Origin: Saprospiraceae bacterium
GTDB taxonomy: Bacteria > Bacteroidota > Bacteroidia > Chitinophagales > Saprospiraceae
Direction of reading: 5' to 3'
Assembly (NCBI GenBank): GCA_027488935.1
Contig: JAIYAP010000014.1
Coordinates: 93,019 to 157,018, forward strand
DNA: 64,000 nucleotides
The position numbers and the translations under genes were made by a program. The notes beneath the pieces were generated by a model that did no database searches, was not told the DNA's origin, and worked only from the letters and a program-made list of their open reading frames with translations. Shown here in pieces: positions 23,437 through 53,579 of this stretch (the first letter of the stretch is position 1; every line of letters begins with the position of its first letter).

Positions 23437-24150
23437 CTACGCGCCGGACTGGAAGTTATCCAGGTCCTCCGTCCAGTCATACGCACGAAAGGAAAGTTGG
23501 TAGTGTGTACTTTTTAAGGCTAACCTTGCTTCCAACATACGCCGAATGCCTGTTTGCCCGCCAAAATCGCCGCGGTACCACCATAACAAACGCGAAGTAG
23601 CCACCGCATGTTGATCTTCCGATACAATCGTTTCGCTTTCCAAAAAGGATTGGGTGGCCAATTCTAATTGCTGTTCTATTTTATCCGGGGTATAAAAGGC
23701 AATCGGCGGACAACTTTTAGCCCCGCAATTGAGGGCAAAGTGGATACGGTAATCTCTTTGGGCAACCATCAATGTCCGCAAAACCCGCCGCGAAAACGGG
23801 TTGGGCAAATATCCCAACGCCCATTTTAGCCGGTTTTTACGCAAAATGATGTGCTCTATATCATCCAGGCTCAGCCATAATCCGGCAATTGCGATGGCGC
23901 GTTTGGTAAAAATGGCCGGCGCTTCTAATTGCTGTTCCTTGCGCAAAATCAGGAAAAACGCATTGTACAGGTTGATCCAACAGGCGAGTTTATGGGCATC
24001 TTCGGGCAAGTCCTGTTTTAGTTCGGCCAGGGGCATACGCGCCAGTTGCTCCAGGGCTTGAGCGGTTGGTTGGTTTAATTTGGCGGATTGGAGGAGTTGT
24101 TGGGAGATTTGGTGGGTGCTACCTTCCTTACTTTGAAGTATTTTTATCAT
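23437..24150 (-). CDS. DUF547 domain protein
   Basis: The 237-residue protein carries the DUF547 signature region: AHKLACWINLYNAFFLILRKE, FSLDDIEHIILRK-like helices, and RIHFALNCGAKSCPPIAFYTP, where the CGAKSCPP-like element is the most conserved. The family is widespread and its biochemical function is unknown. The strict ATG is at 24148-24150; a GTG two codons upstream is an alternative. It starts just after the preceding gene's stop codon (24157-24159), so the two may be co-transcribed. Confidence 0.8.
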   Translation of the reverse strand: MIKILQSKEGSTHQISQQLLQSAKLNQPTAQALEQLARMPLAELKQDLPEDAHKLACWINLYNAFFLILRKEQQLEAPAIFTKRAIAIAGLWLSLDDIEHIILRKNRLKWALGYLPNPFSRRVLRTLMVAQRDYRIHFALNCGAKSCPPIAFYTPDKIEQQLELATQSFLESETIVSEDQHAVATSRLLWWYRGDFGGQTGIRRMLEARLALKSTHYQLSFRAYDWTEDLDNFQSGA

Positions 24151-24156
24151 TTTCAC

Positions 24157-24801
24157 TTACCTCGTTTGTAATGAATCACACTTGTTTGTCTTGAAATAAA
24201 TTTTCATTTTACTTCTTAGACAATCTCGTTGGTTTGGCACTTCTTTATCATTTTCATATTTTGGTTCGAAAAAATTCTTGCTTTCAAATTCTACAAGTCC
24301 AAAAATTATGTTTGGATGTTTTTTATCAGGCATATTAGATAAGGTAACTTTAGATGTTTTAGTTGGCACCTTTACACAATATTCAAGATTTCCCTCTTTT
24401 GTATATGAAAACTGCCTTATCATATGATTACAAATGGAAAGATACACTTTGGGCGTTTTGTCTATTATATTTATTTCAAAACCATACCTACCATTACTTT
24501 TAAAAAAACCATAGATAATTACTGTATCACCTTTTTCTCTCCAATAAGAACAAAATGGTCTATATTTATCATTTTCAATGTTATCGTTTTGCAATAAATC
24601 GTTTGAATAACGTTCAAGGTACAGAGTATTCATATAATTTAAGTCGCATTCGCTTCCGTACTCGTGAAATGTATCAATTATTTCACTTTCTACTTCTTTT
24701 TGAATGTCCTTATCAATGATAATTTTATTGTAATTTTTAGCATTGAAAATACAATTTCCAAATACAAGTACCATAATTAGATATAGAAGTGCCTTTTTCA
24801 T
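24157..24801 (-). CDS. AT-rich predicted lipoprotein of unknown family
   Basis: 214 residues with a signal peptide and lipobox ending VFGNC (Cys17). The mature chain is rich in Asn, Lys, Ile and Tyr and has several Cys residues, with no motif I recognise. The DNA is clearly more AT-rich than its neighbours, a possible sign of transfer. It ends just before the DUF547 gene in the same orientation. Function cannot be inferred. Confidence 0.65.
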   Translation of the reverse strand: MKKALLYLIMVLVFGNCIFNAKNYNKIIIDKDIQKEVESEIIDTFHEYGSECDLNYMNTLYLERYSNDLLQNDNIENDKYRPFCSYWREKGDTVIIYGFFKSNGRYGFEINIIDKTPKVYLSICNHMIRQFSYTKEGNLEYCVKVPTKTSKVTLSNMPDKKHPNIIFGLVEFESKNFFEPKYENDKEVPNQRDCLRSKMKIYFKTNKCDSLQTR

Positions 24802-24998
24802 TGGTTCATTATTTTAATTCCTGTCATATCTGGTTTGCCATAACCCTGATTGCGTGCTCCTCTATTTGTTTCAATCAACAACGATTCTTATGTGGTTAGA
24901 TTGACGCAACCATTTAAGTAAAAGGGGCGCACCGTTTATTAGGCAATTTTTACTTTGCAAATATATTGAAAAACTTCAATTATCCAAATTGCGTCATC

Positions 24999-25006
24999 TA
25001 TATTTG
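24999..25006 (+). promoter_or_regulatory. -7 box for the small protein at 25023
   Basis: TATATTTG matches TAnnTTTG, 16 bases before the ATG at 25023, and rules out the upstream TTG (24966) as the start. The rest of 24802-24998 holds only AT-rich sequence with a second weaker box TACTTTGC near 24950. Confidence 0.55.
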
Positions 25007-40804: not shown

Positions 40805-41239
40805 ACCTCCGTTTTTTAAAATATTTAAAAACGGCTGGCAGAAAGATCTTTAAACAGGATACGGGTACAAGCTGGATACACTGAAAGGGTATCAAGAGCA
40901 GGATGTATTTTTATGATCAAATAGCCGAAGCGGTAAAATTGGATCCGATTCGCTAGACTCAGGTTTGTTTTAAGCTCCAAACCTATCAGTTTGGTAACGA
41001 CATGGAGTCGATTGGCTTATTTTATTCCTGGAGTTGTACCTATTTTCCATATCATTGCCCGAAGGCAAAAAGTAAAAATCAATCCTTGCATCCACTCATA
41101 ACGTTCCGTTCCGTTCTCCCACTTGCCTGCAACTTCGCCGTTAGATGATTCAATACGGCCAAAGGTACATAAATTGTTTAAATAGAAGTTGGTATAAATT
41201 CACACGTACGCATGGGATAACACATATTCATATTACAAA
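40805..41239. other. 435-base gap between holB and the AT-rich operon
   Basis: No gene is seen. A minus-strand TACCTTTG box lies at 41160-41167, pointing towards holB but 350 bases away. At 41099-41144 a TAAC...GTTA pair flanks about 40 bases; read on the minus strand it begins ATCTAACG, like the R-box of an integron attC site. The other end (GTTATGA) matches less well, so a recombination site is only possible. Confidence 0.3.
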
Positions 41240-43078
41240 CTATTCGGCAAAATCATGCAAATCAGCATTTCGCGCTTGATACCGAGTAAATTTATCCAAA
41301 AGATGTTTCGAATCTGGATACCGAAGTCGTTTAATTCGTCTCACTCCAATGCCGATAGACGAACTCGTCAATTTTATCAGGACATCTAATCTATTTGGAA
41401 ATGAAAATACCGGTAGCAAATTTCTTTGCATTATTTGGGTGAAGTCTTTAGTAACTACATTTCGACGAATCCATCTACCTATAACACGGCTATCTGCCTT
41501 TTGTACTACTGTTTGATATTTTACATTTTGATGTATTATGTGTCCAAACTTACTAATAATAATATTGTGTCTATTTTGCAAAGATAAACCAAATTCATTT
41601 TCGGGGAGAGATATATTATCAACTGAAATCATTGCTTCCCCTTCTGAATTGAAAACCGTTAAATCAAGAAAATCTATATCTACATATAATGGGTCTTTAA
41701 AATAAACTTTCCCAATACTATCAGAAACCTCATTATAATATCTTAAAATGTATAAATTTGGCTGTTCGGCCTCTTTTAATGTATTTTTCTTTTGCTTTTC
41801 CGTCATGATTGTTAAATCAATTATTTCAATTCGCAAAAGCAACCCAATACTAGCGTTTCTTTTTCCATCAGACCGAATCATTAAATCACATTCTTGTGCA
41901 ACTAGAACATAGTTTTTCTCTTCCTCACCGAAATATTCAATTTTAAAAATATCTCCATTTTCAAGAGGATAATTCAATCCGTTTATTATTTGCTCTGAAA
42001 GATATAGTTCTTTATTTCGGATTTTTAATTTTTCAATATATGGCTCAGCGTTTGGCTTAGGAAGTTCAATTAAACTAATAGACTTTGCTATTTCGATATT
42101 TTTATTCATTCTATTAACATACTTACTTGTAATCATGTTTTGATGAATAAAATCCTCTTGAAATATTTTTATGATTCGTTGAAGGGTAAACGGCTCCCAA
42201 ATACCTTCCTTAGATGAGGATTTTAAAATTACATCATCAAAATTATATGGATCAAGATTTTCAATTTCTTCTCGTGTTTCTTCTAATGCTTTGTCAAAAA
42301 CGTCAAGTGAGGCAATTTTAATTGTTTCGATATAATTATTTAATAAAGCCTTTTTAATCCCATCAGCAAATGCTTCTAATTCAGAAGATCGACTTTTTGA
42401 AAGTGCAAAAAAATCTTTCTTTTTCAAAATTGACTCTTCTGAAGTTGCTAGATTATTTCTCCATTCTAACTCACTAGCGTACGTAGTTATTTTATTACTA
42501 AAAATAATTGGTATAACCGTTGTCAATAAATTATCCCCCTTCAATTCCTCAATAAAATTATGGCCTTTTCGAGGGCTTGCATCACCAAACTCCTCATCAA
42601 ACAGAACAATAATTTTCCTATTAGGTAAAACTTGTTCTATAATTGTATATTTCTGCTCGACCCATTGATCCGGTGTCAGAGGTTGCAAATTATCAAAGAA
42701 CATAGAAATTTGTTCCACTTTTTCTAAATCACTGAGCCAAGTTTCATCACTAATCTTCGCAACTTGCATAAATATATTTTTTTGGAGATCTGGCGATAAA
42801 GCATCCCACTCTCTTATTAAATAATTTGGCAGGATGTCAATATCTTGATCAAGAGTAAAATGGCCGCTGGCAATACCTCTAATTTCATTATCCTTTCCAT
42901 CTTGAATTGCATATTGTACAAGTCCTATAATTGTTCCAACATCATAACCCCCAACTCTTTCATCCACAAAATATATTTGATCAACATATTCTAATTTCAA
43001 TAATTCCTTTAGTTGATTTTTAATCATTTCAACATTGTTATTAGGTTCCATTCGAACCGGTCTAGCAGGTTTAGCCAT
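41240..43078 (-). CDS. Atypical receiver-domain protein of the three-gene operon
   Basis: 612 residues. The N-terminal ~235 residues fit a response-regulator receiver: acid pair Asp39-Glu40 after IYFV, phosphoacceptor-like Asp161 in IIVLFDEEFGD, the Ser/Thr position as IIFSN (Ser194) and the Lys in FALSKS (Lys228). The gap between the first strand and the Asp161 strand is ~120 residues, about three times normal, so a helical insertion is likely. The C-terminal half has no known effector domain; a motif VLVAQECDLM (~395-399) is reminiscent of the Q-x-C-D-L strand in other stress or defence proteins (uncertain). No nuclease motif is recognised. Starts 11 bases after the upstream gene. Confidence 0.55.
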   Translation of the reverse strand: MAKPARPVRMEPNNNVEMIKNQLKELLKLEYVDQIYFVDERVGGYDVGTIIGLVQYAIQDGKDNEIRGIASGHFTLDQDIDILPNYLIREWDALSPDLQKNIFMQVAKISDETWLSDLEKVEQISMFFDNLQPLTPDQWVEQKYTIIEQVLPNRKIIVLFDEEFGDASPRKGHNFIEELKGDNLLTTVIPIIFSNKITTYASELEWRNNLATSEESILKKKDFFALSKSRSSELEAFADGIKKALLNNYIETIKIASLDVFDKALEETREEIENLDPYNFDDVILKSSSKEGIWEPFTLQRIIKIFQEDFIHQNMITSKYVNRMNKNIEIAKSISLIELPKPNAEPYIEKLKIRNKELYLSEQIINGLNYPLENGDIFKIEYFGEEEKNYVLVAQECDLMIRSDGKRNASIGLLLRIEIIDLTIMTEKQKKNTLKEAEQPNLYILRYYNEVSDSIGKVYFKDPLYVDIDFLDLTVFNSEGEAMISVDNISLPENEFGLSLQNRHNIIISKFGHIIHQNVKYQTVVQKADSRVIGRWIRRNVVTKDFTQIMQRNLLPVFSFPNRLDVLIKLTSSSIGIGVRRIKRLRYPDSKHLLDKFTRYQARNADLHDFAE

Positions 43079-43089
43079 AAAGCAAAAAA

Positions 43090-45564
43090 TTATTTGTTGA
43101 TAGAGTTGAAGTTGATCTGAAAAATGTATCGTTTGTCAAAAGAGTTACGTTGAGGTAACAAGTAAATTTCTCCTCCGTGAGATTCTATTATCTGTTGTGC
43201 ATTAAAAAGCCCTAAACCTCTTCCAATACTTAGAGGCTTAGTAGTGACAAACGGTTGAAAAATGGAACTTTCCACATCCTTACTAACCCCGAAGCCATTA
43301 TCATAAATTCTAACTAATGGGTCATCAACTTCAATTGTGATTAATCCATTAAATCCAGATTCAATCTTTTGTCTTTCTCGCAACCAATATTCTGAATTTA
43401 AAAGTAGATTATCAAAAACTTGAGTTAATTTACCTTCATTCATACGAACAATAAAATCTTGTTTAATATTAATATTAAACAAGATTCCTTGAACTGAAAA
43501 TTTATTCTCAAAATAAGTTTTTAAATCTTTTACAAAGTAACTTACTTTTATTTCCTGTTTTTGTTCTCGATTAAATTTCAAAGAAGGTGCTAAATGATTG
43601 ATTTGATTTCTAATATTTTTTGTAAAACCTTTTACCTGTTCAATATATATAAGAAATGCCACATCTACATTATTAAAATCTTTCATTTTCTTTACCAACT
43701 GGTCAGTTTGACCTGAAATCCTATCTAAAATATTGTATAGTTCATGAGTTAGATATTCAGCCAAAAGACCTAAACCAGCTAATTCTGAAAACTGGGTCAG
43801 TTGGTCTTCCAAACCTTCAATTTGTGGTAATAAATAATCAGCGTCAGATTGCAATTGTTTGGCTAAAGGAAGTAACTCATTAATATCTTTAAGCAATTGT
43901 GCTCCCCTGTTTAAAACACTTTCCGCTTCCTTTAAAATAGGTAAAACAGTTGTTTCAGATTCATTTGCAAAAAGAGGATTGTTCACAATTCGTACAACCT
44001 CGGATTTCATTTTAATAGAGGTTTGATTGAATTCCTCATTCAATCTTTGCAATTTATCATCTACCTTATTAGCAATCTTGGTAGCTTCACGAAGACGGTT
44101 TCCACTGTCTTTTATTGACTTTATTCCACCCTTTTCTTCAGCAAATTTCTTCTGATAATCATTATAACTACGTCGGATGTTTTCACATACCCGATTTATT
44201 TCAGTAACTGCTTTACTAATCAATTGAAAAAAATTACGAGAATAAGGAGAGTCAATAAATCCTTCGCGGTCAGTCTTTTCTTTTAGATTAATATTCTCGT
44301 AGGTAGAGATCAATACATAGCCAATTACATTTTGAGGTCTTAGACCGTAAAATGAGCCTCCAGAAGTTTGACCCTTGTTTAGTTGAAGCCAGTCATTTTG
44401 GTTAAAGCCAAATGGTTTTAAGCCAAAACCATCACGAAAAACTCGAACTCCTGTTTGGTTTTTAACCAGTTCCTTATATTCACTAAAACGTTCAAAAGCA
44501 CCTTGAATGTCATTACCATCTTTTAAATTATATTCATCGATTTCTCCTGTAAATGCCCCAGGATTAGCAGGTTCAAGTTTATCCTCAAATTCATTATAAA
44601 CCATAGCCTTATCGGCAAATGATGTTTGCCAGTCTAAATCAATTGAGAACTTTACAAACCAGCCCTCTTTTCCATTGGTATATTCTAGATTTGGGATAAA
44701 ATATTTTTTGTTATTGTGTGAATCAGATAAGAAATTGAAGAAATGAGCACCATTGTCAGGCTGAATTAACCGAATATAACGTTCCCTTTCATTTCCTACG
44801 AGCTTTGATAGCCTGATTTGCCCTTTTATATTGAAATTGTTCCTATCAAAAGAAAAGCTAAACTTACCAATTGCTGCTTTTCGCAAATTTTCATTAATTT
44901 CATCCAAATCTAATGAAGAATTATCAACAGATAGATAAACATTGAAAGGTCTTTTCTCTTTAAATGGGAATATTAACTGTGATAACTCCGCTCGAAAACG
45001 GTCAAGTTCTTTCTTTTGCCAAATTGTCCGATTACGCAAATTCCTAATAATTAATGTAGTACCTTTCTCTTTTTCTGTTTTAGGGGAAGTTGAATAATCC
45101 ACCTTCACGGTTGAAAGCTCTGTATTTTCATTAAAGTCTTCCCAGTTGAATGAAATATTATGCCATATTAACTCATCTACTTTCCCTGTAATCATCTGCA
45201 TTTGGTATCCTAATTTCTGAGTACTTAACCGCCCTAATCCTTTTTCTCCAAGTGGAGCACGACCTTTGGGAGTGACTTTTAATTCATCTTTCATAGACTT
45301 TTTACTAGACATTGAAATGAACAGCCAGCCATTTTTTATATCTAAATAGTTCATTCCAAAACCATTGTCTTGTATTTCGACACGATTATCTAATTCGTCA
45401 GTATGAATCGAGACTTTAACCCAATCTGCATCAGCGTCATACGCATTTTTAATCAACTCCATTACGGCAGTAATTTCGTCAGTTACTAATTCCTCTCCAA
45501 GTTGGCGCACTACATGCGCACTAATCTCAAAGTTCAAATTTCCTTGTTGTTCGTTCTTAGCCAC
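43090..45564 (-). CDS. Double-GHKL protein: MORC/MutL-like ATPase plus histidine-kinase-like module
   Basis: 824 residues. N-terminal GHKL ATPase: N-box ELIKNAYDADAD (Asn40), DNGFGM (66-71), and GEKGLGRLS (106-114). This order, with its MORC/MutL/Hsp90-type spacing, is unlike a sensor kinase. A central mixed region (~130-590, with coiled coil ~480-590) follows. The C-terminal module has H-box LTHEL (His607), N-box FDNLL (~719), G1 DNGFGV (~752) and G2 GRGLGL (~780-786): a complete histidine kinase with its own ATP site. No membrane or PAS segment. The gene overlaps the methyltransferase by 8 bases and precedes the receiver by 11 bases. Role is inferred: signal-coupled DNA or nucleoprotein ATPase. 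Confidence 0.75.
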   Translation of the reverse strand: MAKNEQQGNLNFEISAHVVRQLGEELVTDEITAVMELIKNAYDADADWVKVSIHTDELDNRVEIQDNGFGMNYLDIKNGWLFISMSSKKSMKDELKVTPKGRAPLGEKGLGRLSTQKLGYQMQMITGKVDELIWHNISFNWEDFNENTELSTVKVDYSTSPKTEKEKGTTLIIRNLRNRTIWQKKELDRFRAELSQLIFPFKEKRPFNVYLSVDNSSLDLDEINENLRKAAIGKFSFSFDRNNFNIKGQIRLSKLVGNERERYIRLIQPDNGAHFFNFLSDSHNNKKYFIPNLEYTNGKEGWFVKFSIDLDWQTSFADKAMVYNEFEDKLEPANPGAFTGEIDEYNLKDGNDIQGAFERFSEYKELVKNQTGVRVFRDGFGLKPFGFNQNDWLQLNKGQTSGGSFYGLRPQNVIGYVLISTYENINLKEKTDREGFIDSPYSRNFFQLISKAVTEINRVCENIRRSYNDYQKKFAEEKGGIKSIKDSGNRLREATKIANKVDDKLQRLNEEFNQTSIKMKSEVVRIVNNPLFANESETTVLPILKEAESVLNRGAQLLKDINELLPLAKQLQSDADYLLPQIEGLEDQLTQFSELAGLGLLAEYLTHELYNILDRISGQTDQLVKKMKDFNNVDVAFLIYIEQVKGFTKNIRNQINHLAPSLKFNREQKQEIKVSYFVKDLKTYFENKFSVQGILFNINIKQDFIVRMNEGKLTQVFDNLLLNSEYWLRERQKIESGFNGLITIEVDDPLVRIYDNGFGVSKDVESSIFQPFVTTKPLSIGRGLGLFNAQQIIESHGGEIYLLPQRNSFDKRYIFQINFNSINK

Positions 45565-46948
45565 TTTTGCGCAAGATGAGTATTTTTTCAGTTTTCATTG
45601 TTTGTGAGAAGTTGTTTTTGGCGGGCATCTTTTTATTTAAAATTTTCCTTTCCAACTCCGTCACATAAGTAAACCCTTTATCTTCTAAAAAGTCCTTCAT
45701 AATCAAGTCGTTAGGTATCTCTATACTCCCGACATTTCGATTTCCGATTGTCCATATGTTATAAGAGTTTGGAGCCATATATTTTGCAACGTTTGAAAAT
45801 GACTTATCGAGGTCAAGAAAAAAATTCAATACTTTATTAACCTTATTAGGGTGATTAATCTTCAAGCGTTCTATGGTTAGTTTTAAAGCTTTTGACATTT
45901 GAAACAGATTAGATATATCGTCTAATTTAATCGGGCGCTCACTTCCTCCAATACTTTGGTAGTCAATTTCATGCGTAGTTTGAATTATTTCATTCGTTAA
46001 ACCTGGGCTAATATCATTTAAATCAATCCATTGCAATGGTAAATAAGAGTGCTGCCCATATGGAATTGTTGATTTATTATCTCCATAAGGGGGCGATGTA
46101 ACTAAAATATCGAATAGTTGATTTTCATCTCCTACTTTTATCGCAGTTTTACTATTAGCGAGAGAGATTCGAATTTCCTCTAAATATTCCCCATTCAAAT
46201 CTAATAGTGATTTACTATTTAGCATTCTTTTAAAACCTGCTAAATAGCGAATATTATCTTCTGCTAAACATTTAAAGGTTTTGATTGGACTTATGGTACG
46301 TCTTTCAATTTCTTCATCCTTGCGTCGATGCAATTTATAAGTAGAAATTCTGTCATTGCTAGTTAGGCGAATCGTCTCTGCAAATGTTATCCAAAGAAAC
46401 CTCCTTACATCCAAGCGCTTAACCAAATAAATCCCTGATTGTATTCTTGAAAGTTCATTGATAACTTCAGGTTTAAACCAACGATCTATACCTTTAAAAT
46501 TAGTCTTAGTCACTATTGATTCATTCTTTATAACAAATTCTAATATCTCATTGTATCCTTGATGTAAATCTGTGGCACTACAATTACTTAGTTTTACTTG
46601 CGCTAATAATACCGCCAAGGGATTAATATCTTGACCATAACAGCTCAATCCACATTCCATACCAGCCAACAATGAACTAGCTGACCCCATGTATGGGTCA
46701 AATAGTCTTCTAACTCCGGTTTGACACTCAGTAATTACTGAAATTAAGTCTCTTTGCCCATCAGTAACCATCATAGCCGGATATAAAAAAATAGCTTGAA
46801 GATGCTCTTTCCTCTTGCCTTTTCGCTTATTCTGCCAGTCAGGATCTTCTATTAGTATCTTTTTAATTTTTTCCTTAACGGCCATATCAACTATTCCCAA
46901 AGCCTGCCGTTGGTTGTTTATTATTGGCAATGAGACACCATTTGACAT
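45557..46948 (-). CDS. AT-rich DNA methyltransferase of the three-gene operon
   Basis: 463 residues with an AdoMet-binding motif I (FDPYMGSASSLLAGM, ~84) and motif IV TSPPYGD (~284-288), giving the order motif I, ~200 residues, motif IV, as in alpha-class amino-methyltransferases; SPPY is common in N4-cytosine and N6-adenine enzymes. The stretch between could be the target-recognition domain. The AT-rich sequence and promoter (47009-47038) suggest a foreign origin. No partner nuclease is nearby. It may protect the host DNA or mark a target (inferred); specificity unknown. Confidence 0.75.
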   Translation of the reverse strand: MSNGVSLPIINNQRQALGIVDMAVKEKIKKILIEDPDWQNKRKGKRKEHLQAIFLYPAMMVTDGQRDLISVITECQTGVRRLFDPYMGSASSLLAGMECGLSCYGQDINPLAVLLAQVKLSNCSATDLHQGYNEILEFVIKNESIVTKTNFKGIDRWFKPEVINELSRIQSGIYLVKRLDVRRFLWITFAETIRLTSNDRISTYKLHRRKDEEIERRTISPIKTFKCLAEDNIRYLAGFKRMLNSKSLLDLNGEYLEEIRISLANSKTAIKVGDENQLFDILVTSPPYGDNKSTIPYGQHSYLPLQWIDLNDISPGLTNEIIQTTHEIDYQSIGGSERPIKLDDISNLFQMSKALKLTIERLKINHPNKVNKVLNFFLDLDKSFSNVAKYMAPNSYNIWTIGNRNVGSIEIPNDLIMKDFLEDKGFTYVTELERKILNKKMPAKNNFSQTMKTEKILILRKSG

Positions 46949-47008: not shown

Positions 47009-47038
47009 CAAATATACGCAATTATGCATATAATCAAA
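47009..47038 (-). promoter_or_regulatory. Promoter of the three-gene operon
   Basis: Minus strand: TTTG (47038-47035), 18 bases, TATATTTG (47016-47009), close to the Bacteroidota consensus. The predicted start is ~46 to 60 bases before the methyltransferase ATG. Confidence 0.7.
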
Positions 47039-50962: not shown

Positions 50963-51041
50963 ACCACGGATTACTCGGATTTGCACAGATTTTTCTTTTT
51001 CAGGGGGATTTACCACAGATTTACAGGGACTTATACAGATT
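50963..51041 (+). repeat. CACGGATT-family repeat, copies 2 and 3
   Basis: ACCACGGATTACTCGGATT followed by TGCACAGATTTTT (50963-50993), and TACCACAGATTTACAGGGAC followed by TTATACAGATT (51011-51041), 48 bases apart. The second is more diverged. Confidence 0.65.
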
Positions 51042-51051
51042 GGAGGGCTGG

Positions 51052-51106
51052 TGCGGGTTTAACCCGATGGAGGGACGCACCAGGTAGAACCTCGCGCTAG
51101 CGGGGG
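51052..51106. repeat. Compensated-hairpin repeat, copy 3, inverted
   Basis: CGGGTTTAACCCG, ACGCACCAGGTAGAACCTCGC and CGCGCTAGCG-like elements, when read on the minus strand, align with 33175 and 14843 in the same order of boxes. It lies in the space between the fusion protein and the immunity-like genes. Confidence 0.6.
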
Positions 51107-51116
51107 GATTATCTCT

Positions 51117-51833
51117 TTACCAAGCACCAAGATTCAAAGTATCCCCATCGTTAACCTCTAGAAACCGAATTCCTGTTATTCCTGCTTCTTCAATTGCACT
51201 TTTCAAGGTTTGGGATATAATGGGAAAAACTACAAATGGAAGCATGAAAATATCTTTATCTATGCCGTTTGGGTTTAGGTACAATTCCCTTAATCTCAGA
51301 TAACGGGCCTTAGCATTTGGGTTTTCGGCCCTGGCTGTTTTAAACTCGAGATGCAGTCTTTTCAACGTTTCCTCTATTTCAATTGCGTTTTTAATTTCAA
51401 CATCGATTTTTTCAGAAAGGTCGGTGTTTTCAATTACAAACTTTGATTTTGACAGATCTATAAATTCAGGATTTTGCTTATTAAAATATATAAATTTATA
51501 AGGTAAAACTTTATCTTTATGTTCAAGGGTAGCATCTAATGCGATCAAGTCTGGCAAATTGAATTTAAGTAATAATTCCCAGAAACGTACACTTACCAAT
51601 GGCCGATGAAATCCGATATTTACCCCACTAATCCAGTCGGTAACCTTTGCTTGATATTTTAACTTGAACCCATACGCATTTCGAAATGGACTTGAAATTA
51701 ATCCATCTGGATATATGCCAAATACTGCCATGGGCTCTAAAGCATTATATCCGTTAAACATCCGCTCCAATTGAGGGTATGGCCTGCCAATGATTTTTGG
51801 GTCCGAAGCGGCATTCATGAAATAGTATTGCAT
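51117..51833 (-). CDS. Imm11-like immunity protein candidate
   Basis: 238 residues with the C-terminal pattern LKSAIEEAGITGIRFLEVNDG, and a central DKVLPYKFIYFNKQN, which I associate with the Imm11 family of polymorphic-toxin immunity proteins (recalled, not searched). No toxin gene is nearby, so it would be an orphan. It has modestly lower G+C than the fusion gene. A second similar-type gene follows at 51909. Confidence 0.55.
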   Translation of the reverse strand: MQYYFMNAASDPKIIGRPYPQLERMFNGYNALEPMAVFGIYPDGLISSPFRNAYGFKLKYQAKVTDWISGVNIGFHRPLVSVRFWELLLKFNLPDLIALDATLEHKDKVLPYKFIYFNKQNPEFIDLSKSKFVIENTDLSEKIDVEIKNAIEIEETLKRLHLEFKTARAENPNAKARYLRLRELYLNPNGIDKDIFMLPFVVFPIISQTLKSAIEEAGITGIRFLEVNDGDTLNLGAW

Positions 51834-51908
51834 GGTTCAGTTTAAAATTTATTCCGCCGCGCTTGCGTGAAAACGCTGCGCGGCGGAATTGACTTCTTCC
51901 ATTTTTAT

Positions 51909-52505
51909 CTAAGGCAAAGGTGGTAATCCCGCCCTTTTCCGATATTCATCCATGCCATTTTTTACCTTTTGATCGACATACGCTTTATCTAATTTGTATT
52001 GATGATTGAAATAGGCATCAATATTCACATCAATTGGATAAAAATTTGTCAATATTTCAAATGCTGGGCCAAAATTCTTCCAACGGATTTCATCCTCGTA
52101 TCCTTTATGCTTGCGCAAGAAATCCAGCGCTTTTTCGGATACCACTAAAAACCTTTTGTCCCAAAGGAAAAAATCTTGCACCACTCCAGTGGATGGTATT
52201 TCTACTTTCCAAAAGCTTTTTTCGGTGATCGAATGTTCTGTAAAAAAATCTACCCGATGCGGATCTAATAACAAATGATCAATCGGAGTGAAAGTCAGTT
52301 CCGTAAAACCCGCTTCCTGAAGTTCCTTTTTAAATGCATCCGTTGCAAAATAATCTGCACCAAAAGTTCCAAAAAAAGCAGGCGGAATATCGAAAGTGTC
52401 GGGGTACAAGACGCGAAGTCCCAAAGGCAATCCTTCGTTGTTACGTTCATTGGAGACAAAGTATTCGCCAGCAAGCGCATTTACTCCAATATAATAAAAC
52501 TTCAT
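51909..52505 (-). CDS. Second Imm11-like immunity protein candidate
   Basis: 198 residues with DFFLWDKRFLVVSEKALDFLRKHKG, close to the SerLeu-rich strand typical of Imm11, and FFGTFGADYFATDAFKKELQEAGF. Tandem with 51117 on the same strand, 75 bases apart. It lacks a signal peptide. Immunity role is inferred by family feel; no toxin is nearby. Confidence 0.5.
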   Translation of the reverse strand: MKFYYIGVNALAGEYFVSNERNNEGLPLGLRVLYPDTFDIPPAFFGTFGADYFATDAFKKELQEAGFTELTFTPIDHLLLDPHRVDFFTEHSITEKSFWKVEIPSTGVVQDFFLWDKRFLVVSEKALDFLRKHKGYEDEIRWKNFGPAFEILTNFYPIDVNIDAYFNHQYKLDKAYVDQKVKNGMDEYRKRAGLPPLP

Positions 52506-52737
52506 AAAAATTAGCGAATTGGTGGAACGAAAAGTTTGTCGAACTTTGAATGCATATTTACCTGTTTAGACCGGCTATTTAGGATCACAAAGATTGCAGC
52601 CTAAAGCCACCCAATTCGCGACAGTTGAACAACTTTTTGAAGGGTGCTTTTTCGAATATAACAATTAAAATACAATGCAAATACTTATTGATCAATTATT
52701 TATACGAAAAGTCAATAGGCGCAGGGAAGATGTTATT

Positions 52738-52857
52738 TACCACGGATTACACGGATTTGCACAGATTTTAATAATATTCGAAATTAAAAAAATCTGTGTT
52801 AATCCGTGTAATCCGTGGTGTATCAAAATCTGTGCAAATCCCGATTAATCCGCGTGC
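52738..52857. repeat. CACGGATT-family inverted repeat
   Basis: A left arm TACCACGGATTACACGGATT continuing with TGCACAGATTTT (52738-52769) and a right arm AATCTGTG, TTAATCCGTG, TAATCCGTGGTG (52790-52820) form a ~30-bp inverted repeat with a loop of ~20 bases. A further partial copy (52825-52857) overlaps the 3' end of the SH3 gene, so its stop codon (52845-52847) lies inside the repeat. The rest of 52506-52737 has no recognised feature. Confidence 0.75.
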
Positions 52858-53579
52858 GACATGCTCAAATGTACAATACCGCCTTTGTTTTGCACTTCCA
52901 CTTCCCACAATTCATCATTGCTGGTCAGCGTAATAACCCCTTTGCTGATCGTGGATTTGAGACTTTCCACATCTTCCAGCCACAATTGTTTGCCAATCAG
53001 GTAGGCTTCTTCCACCGTTGTTTCTTTGCCAAAGCGGATGATGTATTGGGAGCCGCCTTCCCCGGTATTCACTTCCAGGTCGGCATTATTGGTAAACAGG
53101 ATGCGGTAATGTTCGTAGCGGTTATCGCCTTTTTCCAGGTCAATACGTTTGCCTTTGCGGTCGGCGTGCATCATCAGGTAGCGTTCCTGAATGGTCGTCG
53201 CGTCATTGTCTTTGGCATTCGGGTCATCGCCGTTTGGCAGGCTGCCCACCGTTTTGTATTTAGAAAGATAGCCGTCGAACACGTAGCCCTCTTTGCCGCC
53301 GGGAATACGCACTTTTACCCAAAAACCTTTGATGGTAAAGCCTTCAAACGGCGATACGGAATGGGGATTTTTGCGGAAACCCTCTTTCAGTACCGTCACT
53401 AAGGTACCGAATTCGACGGTCATGATTTTTTTGCCGGTTGGTGCAGGCGTTTCGCGCAGGATTAATCCGCTGGCTGCGTGTACCGTGAGTTGGTCACCCA
53501 CGGCATACATTCCAATAGAAAAAGCCACGGAAGGCCATGCAAACAGGCAAAGCAGTAGGAAAAATTGAAAAGTTCTCAT
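52845..53579 (-). CDS. SH3-domain secreted protein
   Basis: 244 residues. Signal peptide FFLLLCLFAWPSVAFSIG. A bacterial SH3 domain (~20-95: LTVHAASGLILRETPAPTGKKIMTVEFGT ... FWVKVRIPGGKEGYVFDGYL) follows, then a novel C-terminal half. SH3b domains usually bind peptidoglycan or metal-rich surfaces. ATG at 53577-53579 chosen because it begins the signal. Its last codons and stop come from a CACGGATT-type repeat. A -7 box precedes it. Confidence 0.75.
   Translation of the reverse strand: MRTFQFFLLLCLFAWPSVAFSIGMYAVGDQLTVHAASGLILRETPAPTGKKIMTVEFGTLVTVLKEGFRKNPHSVSPFEGFTIKGFWVKVRIPGGKEGYVFDGYLSKYKTVGSLPNGDDPNAKDNDATTIQERYLMMHADRKGKRIDLEKGDNRYEHYRILFTNNADLEVNTGEGGSQYIIRFGKETTVEEAYLIGKQLWLEDVESLKSTISKGVITLTSNDELWEVEVQNKGGIVHLSMSHAD

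Follow-up and report, generated by a model that had tools for sequence, protein, structure and literature searches.

Pairs of a histidine kinase (HEF_HK, PF19191) and a receiver protein (Response_reg_2, PF19192) encoded beside restriction-modification (R-M) genes were described by Bellieny-Rabelo et al. (2021; PMC8011034). In the accessible portions of that paper, these elements carry conspicuous C5 methylases, show 91.6% linkage across 644 regions, and are discussed as a possible two-component system with an unknown output, with no other known domain reported in the receivers. Here, we analyzed a 64,000-nucleotide stretch of a Saprospiraceae bacterium genome (GenBank assembly GCA_027488935.1, contig JAIYAP010000014.1, positions 93,019 to 157,018), referred to as the window. 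It contains three adjacent genes encoding a DNA methylase, a histidine kinase with two GHKL ATPase domains, and a receiver protein. This trio is conserved and mobile, and it is very likely one operon that was horizontally acquired. Its best reading is a mobile switch of the abortive-infection type.

The three open reading frames (ORFs) all lie on the minus strand, in the order methylase (45557..46948, 463 amino acids), kinase (43090..45564, 824 amino acids, overlapping the methylase by 8 bases) and receiver (41240..43078, 612 amino acids, after an 11-base gap). The guanine-plus-cytosine (GC) content of the block is 32.8%, compared to 47.7% in the remaining window, confirming the three packed low-GC genes of the original prediction. 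Upstream of the methylase, a Bacteroidota-type promoter-like sequence was found on the minus strand (47009..47037) as a pattern match only.

Two ATPase domains were detected in the kinase: a MORC/MutL-type GHKL domain at residues 32-155 (45100..45471, minus strand; HATPase_c_3, E-value 3.3e-18) and a C-terminal kinase ATP-binding domain at residues 710-802 (43159..43437, minus strand; HATPase_c, E-value 1.5e-17). HATPase_c was found in all of 44 aligned kinases and HATPase_c_3 in 43. The H-box histidine, H607 (LTHEL; 43744..43746, minus strand), is present in 44 of 44; the next residue is E in 43 of them and D in the remaining one. Equally invariant are the C-terminal residues N719, N723, D755, G757, G759, G781, G783 and G785 and the N-terminal residues G106, K108, G109 and G111, while E36, N40, D43, D66, G68 and G70 are found in 43 kinases, the remaining one having a gap. 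In PADLOC, the kinase N-terminus matched two generic Type II restriction endonuclease models (E-values 5.6e-9 and 3.8e-8), and TmtA and MzaB were matched at an E-value of about 0.01 only.

The receiver protein matched no family above cut-off: PADLOC and NCBIfam gave nothing, and Pfam gave one chance-level row (E-value 0.17). A CheY-like receiver domain is predicted at residues 27-250 (42329..43000, minus strand), with a helical insertion at about 63-125 and D161 as the phospho-acceptor. Among 57 aligned sequences, D161, S/T194 and K228 are present in 57 and D39 in 56, with one gap; the position after D39 is D or E in 54, N in 2 and a gap in 1. Both proteins carry the signature residues of a two-component system: the kinase has the H-box His and the N/G boxes, and the receiver has the Asp, Thr/Ser and Lys. 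The original prediction had named the C-terminal kinase motif and receiver residues Asp39, Asp161, Ser194 and Lys228, and these were borne out across the family, with position 194 as S or T.

Foldseek searches with the full-length receiver returned mixed and weak lists, including one PemK-like viral row (probability 0.35), and, therefore, the output domain (residues 343-612; 41243..42052, minus strand) was folded on its own. The resulting AlphaFold model (predicted local distance difference test 87.9, predicted template modelling score 0.87) matches the MazF/CcdB/ToxN fold in Foldseek and VIA and contains a coiled-coil insertion. Ten residues of this domain, G375, D376, F378, Q395, C397, R402, D472, G480, R581 and R603, are invariant in 57 of 57 receivers. 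The effector, which the original prediction left open, thus has a candidate in this domain with its predicted toxin-like fold. A restriction-nuclease domain in the receiver was rejected for now, since no family matched and the fold searches of its parts pointed to CheY-like receivers and MazF-type RNases. No nuclease families were found in the three trio proteins or in three flanking genes scanned, the rest of the genome not having been searched. A search for stand-alone output domains with the 270-amino-acid query returned 39 proteins, most of them encoded on short contigs. Seven were inspected: one was a full receiver and the others, which lack a receiver part, may be fragments or start miscalls. 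The best such lead is P0165, a protein of 298 amino acids on a 39.8-kb contig, to which the same caution applies.

The methylase is an amino-methyltransferase of the N4-cytosine or N6-adenine type (PADLOC MTase_II, E-value 6.1e-74). It matches generic Type II methylase models in PADLOC, and the Pfam families N6_N4_Mtase and Eco57I below cut-off. N6_N4_Mtase was detected at E-values up to 0.01 in 40 of 49 proteins, of which one is the window methylase and 48 are encoded upstream of kinases. All of 46 trios compared keep the D, P and G of FDPYMGS, as well as the S-P-P-Y-G-D of TSPPYGD, unchanged. A TSPPY motif points to N4-cytosine specificity, and this motif suggests the same specificity for the window enzyme. 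PADLOC named no system for the trio.

Conservation of the trio was examined at 58 loci obtained by a receiver-profile search of a genome collection. They are labelled Bacteroidota, Chloroflexota (Anaerolineaceae), Planctomycetota, Gemmatimonadetes, Pseudomonadota, Actinomycetota, Lentisphaerae, Armatimonadetes and others, and one is an archaeal metagenome-assembled genome. A dual-GHKL kinase adjoins the receiver in 53 of the 58. Four of the five misses lie at contig ends (L016, L027, L056, L058) and at the fifth, L053, there is a fragment of the receiver with no kinase beside it. A methylase of the window family (E-value below 1e-40) adjoins in 48 loci, upstream in 43 and convergent downstream in 5, all labelled actinobacterial (L045, L048, L049, L050, L055). 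Six of the ten methylase misses are at contig ends (L015, L016, L027, L032, L056, L058), leaving four true misses (L043, L051, L053, L054). In 46 complete trios including that of the window, the protein distances are correlated (r = 0.86, 0.95 and 0.86), values reached by 0 of 999 permutations; host shared ancestry could add to this correlation. These values led us to reject an orphan methylase beside unrelated genes, and the unity of the operon, as proposed originally, held up in other genomes. Two side observations were made at these loci. In two actinobacterial loci, HEPN_Swt1 and DUF499 proteins are encoded upstream of the kinase, with the methylase on the opposite side (L048:3617-7168, L049:2696-6064). 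Elsewhere, kinase and receiver occupy one 1266-amino-acid ORF (L031:7550-11350), which looks like a deletion fusion; the kinase match ends at profile position 713 and the receiver match starts at 67. This ORF was dropped as fusion evidence because the kinase match ends before the ATP-binding boxes are complete.

The distribution of the system is sporadic. Among 100 genomes of relatives, the receiver was found only in its own, and 41 of the others belong to the same genus. When the N-terminal 479 residues of the kinase were searched against 395 genomes of the phylum, 26 genomes matched at E-values up to 1e-20. Matches reaching about residue 476 came from the receiver-bearing genomes (G000, G460, G264), while the others stop before 300. 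The receiver profile gave one weak partial match in this search (G346, 21 bits), which was not counted. Two same-genus genomes have an empty site. In G004, the sequence is homologous from the polymerase gene as far as window position 41182 and again from 47483 onward; where the window has the segment 41183..47482, G004 has 238 bp. In G023, the polymerase subunit is 98% and the ThuA/GSDH flank 95% identical at the protein level, and a distance of about 0.6 kb separates the two flanking genes.

Relatives are also found on mobile DNA. The trio is present on a Hymenobacter monticola plasmid, beside recombinase genes, with a receiver 30% identical; this receiver relative (L094:8001-9797) is annotated as a cytochrome P450, apparently a misnomer. 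IMG/VR was scanned with the receiver and kinase profiles, and the whole trio was found in five contigs (L124, also listed as L154, and L155, L159, L165 and L170), with the methylase downstream and a weaker receiver match (E-value 8e-13) in L159. Two more contigs (L125, L156) have a partial trio at the contig end; they come from the same sample and both break within the kinase, possibly representing one trio-bearing phage. Phage-type genes were looked at around L124, where the trio comes after a gpA terminase, and L125, where it comes before a lambda-type portal gene; the remaining contigs are viral as IMG/VR entries. The receiver had no match among INPHARED phage genomes. The GC-poor block, the empty sites and the plasmid and viral relatives all agree with the foreign origin proposed in the original prediction. 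Other low-GC patches in the window lie at 24001-25000 (32.6%) and 51001-53000 (39.4 and 38.4%).

The principle of R-M-linked pairs of MORC-type kinases and receivers has been known since 2021 (PMC8011034), including what the original prediction had considered unusual, a MORC-histidine kinase fusion with a receiver near a methylase. We, therefore, compared the window trio with these elements. A search for PF19192 in the 100 nearest relatives and its controls were both silent, and so the phylum was searched, where 16 of 395 genomes matched at an E-value of 0.001 and 8 of these exceeded the cut-off. The weak matches (L067-L075, 21-23 bits) were removed from the PF19192 set; they are ORFs of 240-260 amino acids beside ORFs of about 320-330 amino acids, come from genomes of a single family of the phylum and are probably ordinary response regulators. 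The order methylase, kinase, receiver is common to both groups. In 8 of 8 fetched PF19192 loci, a C5 methylase comes first, in contrast to the N4/N6-type of the window, and an ORF of 966-1001 amino acids lies between methylase and receiver. Two of these eight middle ORFs were scanned and both contain HATPase_c_3, HEF_HK and HATPase_c. The window branch shares the two ATPase domains in one kinase, the kinase-receiver adjacency and the nearby methylase.

The kinase-core profiles of the two branches align with a probability of 99.4-99.8%. PF19191 scored 7.3 bits in the window kinase (E-value 8.9), below its cut-off of 24.1, and was seen at E-values up to 1 in 11 of 44 window-branch kinases (best 2.7e-4). 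The receivers are more distant. PF19192 was not found in the window receiver at E-values up to 10. It was also absent from the 25 families listed, out of 45, for the 57 window-branch receivers, each of these families matching one sequence only. Full-length receivers of the two branches gave no significant alignment (probabilities of 8.4% and 7.7%). Receiver domains alone gave 1%, with a score of 19.0 against a maximum of 15.0 in 40 shuffles, and output domains alone gave 48% locally and 70% globally, with a score of 35 where 40 shuffles reached at most 20. Five phage-borne receivers with a methylase and kinase (L175, L183, L190, L212, L213) align with both, at 75% to the window branch (87% to its output domain alone) and 96% to the PF19192 branch; the scores were 49-75 compared to shuffle maxima of 16-20 (20 shuffles each). 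By eye, these receivers have in common a CD motif and a strand of the form GD-[LIV]-[FY]. Because the output domains and the phage-borne receivers connect the two receiver branches, the window trio is best placed, on sequence comparison, in a single wider class, where it forms a divergent branch outside both Pfam families as defined.

A possible further branch was noticed among viral dual-GHKL kinases of about 700-800 amino acids (L157, L158, L160, L162, L166, L173, L186 and others), which are followed by a receiver-like protein of 439-465 amino acids with a CD-type motif. The seven pairs used have no methylase-motif gene directly upstream, and they align at 2% to the window branch and 66% to PF19192. 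Pattern-based viral counts (35, 51 and 38 of 69) gave a loose estimate and were not used as proof.

These findings can be assembled into a proposed defence switch of the two-component type, linked to methylation, whose MORC-type kinase would activate a receiver with a predicted MazF/CcdB/ToxN-like output domain. We consider this account to have an even chance of being correct. The methylase would mark self DNA, and the N-terminal GHKL module would close on invading or unmodified DNA. Closure would start autophosphorylation of H607, followed by transfer to D161, and the phosphorylated receiver would free its output domain. The freed domain may then stop growth through RNA, as MazF or ToxN, or through gyrase, as CcdB. 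True MazF membership was rejected since an hhalign comparison of the output domain with a PF02452 (MazF) profile, built from 19 of 28 PF02452 loci where the RP-strand was recognisable, was no better than shuffles. The domain also had no Pfam match at E-values up to 10. The catalytic residues of MazF are Arg and Thr, and these fall outside the invariant set when residue lists, rather than a structure-based alignment, are compared. The main weakness of the toxicity model is its reliance on a predicted fold in which MazF chemistry is not conserved.

Other explanations were considered. The kinase and receiver could serve the R-M genes by regulating methylase expression or activity, with no toxin involved, as the 2021 authors suggest for the related family (PMC8011034). 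The adjacent methylase in 48 of 58 loci fits this role, but no DNA-binding family was detected in the window receiver (PADLOC, Pfam, NCBIfam), structure prediction gives the output domain a toxin fold, the trio is mobile with a sporadic distribution, and phage-borne relatives often have no methylase-like gene upstream; we regard regulation as unlikely. We also regard as rather improbable a selfish addiction module, in which loss of the operon would leave unmethylated sites to be read by the kinase and the receiver toxin would kill, as in R-M post-segregational killing. It uses the same parts as the defence switch and would agree with plasmid and viral-contig carriage and a co-inherited methylase; the clean absence in the empty-site relatives is neutral toward it. 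Finally, the missing PF02452 link and differing invariant residues would suit a non-toxic SH3-like barrel that binds nucleic acid or protein and recruits an unlinked nuclease in an unusual restriction system, but this is very unlikely, as the invariant polar residues D376, Q395, C397, R402, D472, R581 and R603 suggest an active site and the flanking genes scanned contain no nuclease family.

As a whole, the original interpretation is partly supported. As far as our searches go, three things are new: the branch with an N4/N6-type methylase, the connection of this branch to phage-borne ones, and an output predicted to be toxin-like. Searches of open-licence PubMed Central text turned up, beyond PMC8011034, no description of this branch, nor of such receivers with a MazF-like output. 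More tentatively, and with some doubt, the defence switch may belong to a large unrecognised class of phospho-gated toxins, in which MORC-type kinases read foreign or unmodified DNA and signal by His-Asp phosphorelay to MazF-fold receivers, with interchangeable methylases (C5, N4/N6 or none) and phage-carried branches. If true, this would supply the missing output of R-M-linked elements known only as "TCS-like" since 2021, and it would provide a clean example of a phosphorelay governing a toxin-type effector in response to DNA. Bacterial MORC-type ATPases would also gain a measurable read-out, the phosphorylation of a named Asp.

Compared to known systems, the output domain resembles MazF/PemK, CcdB and ToxN in predicted fold and, by eye, MazF in its GDI(F/Y) and VLV-x-Q strands. 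It differs from these toxins in lacking profile similarity, in its coiled-coil insertion and in its invariant residues, and its neighbors are a kinase and a methylase where the toxins have an antitoxin gene. Detocs phage defence has a similar logic, in which a kinase signals to a receiver-effector, but its sensor and effector differ from those of the trio and it is not known to include a methylase. WonAB, an ABC-ATPase system (PMC12137116), was set aside as unrelated. With the MORC/paraMORC ATPases of R-M systems (Iyer et al. 2008; PMC2292703) and the BbrUII/HgiDII restriction enzymes, the trio has in common an N-terminal GHKL ATPase and the R-M context. Kinase residues 11-186 match NF050001 (BbrUII/HgiDII) with an E-value of 1.4e-23, although the score is far below the whole-protein cut-off; the similarity is to the ATPase part of BbrUII-type enzymes. 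In contrast to these ATPases and enzymes, the window protein has a histidine kinase core as its C-terminus.
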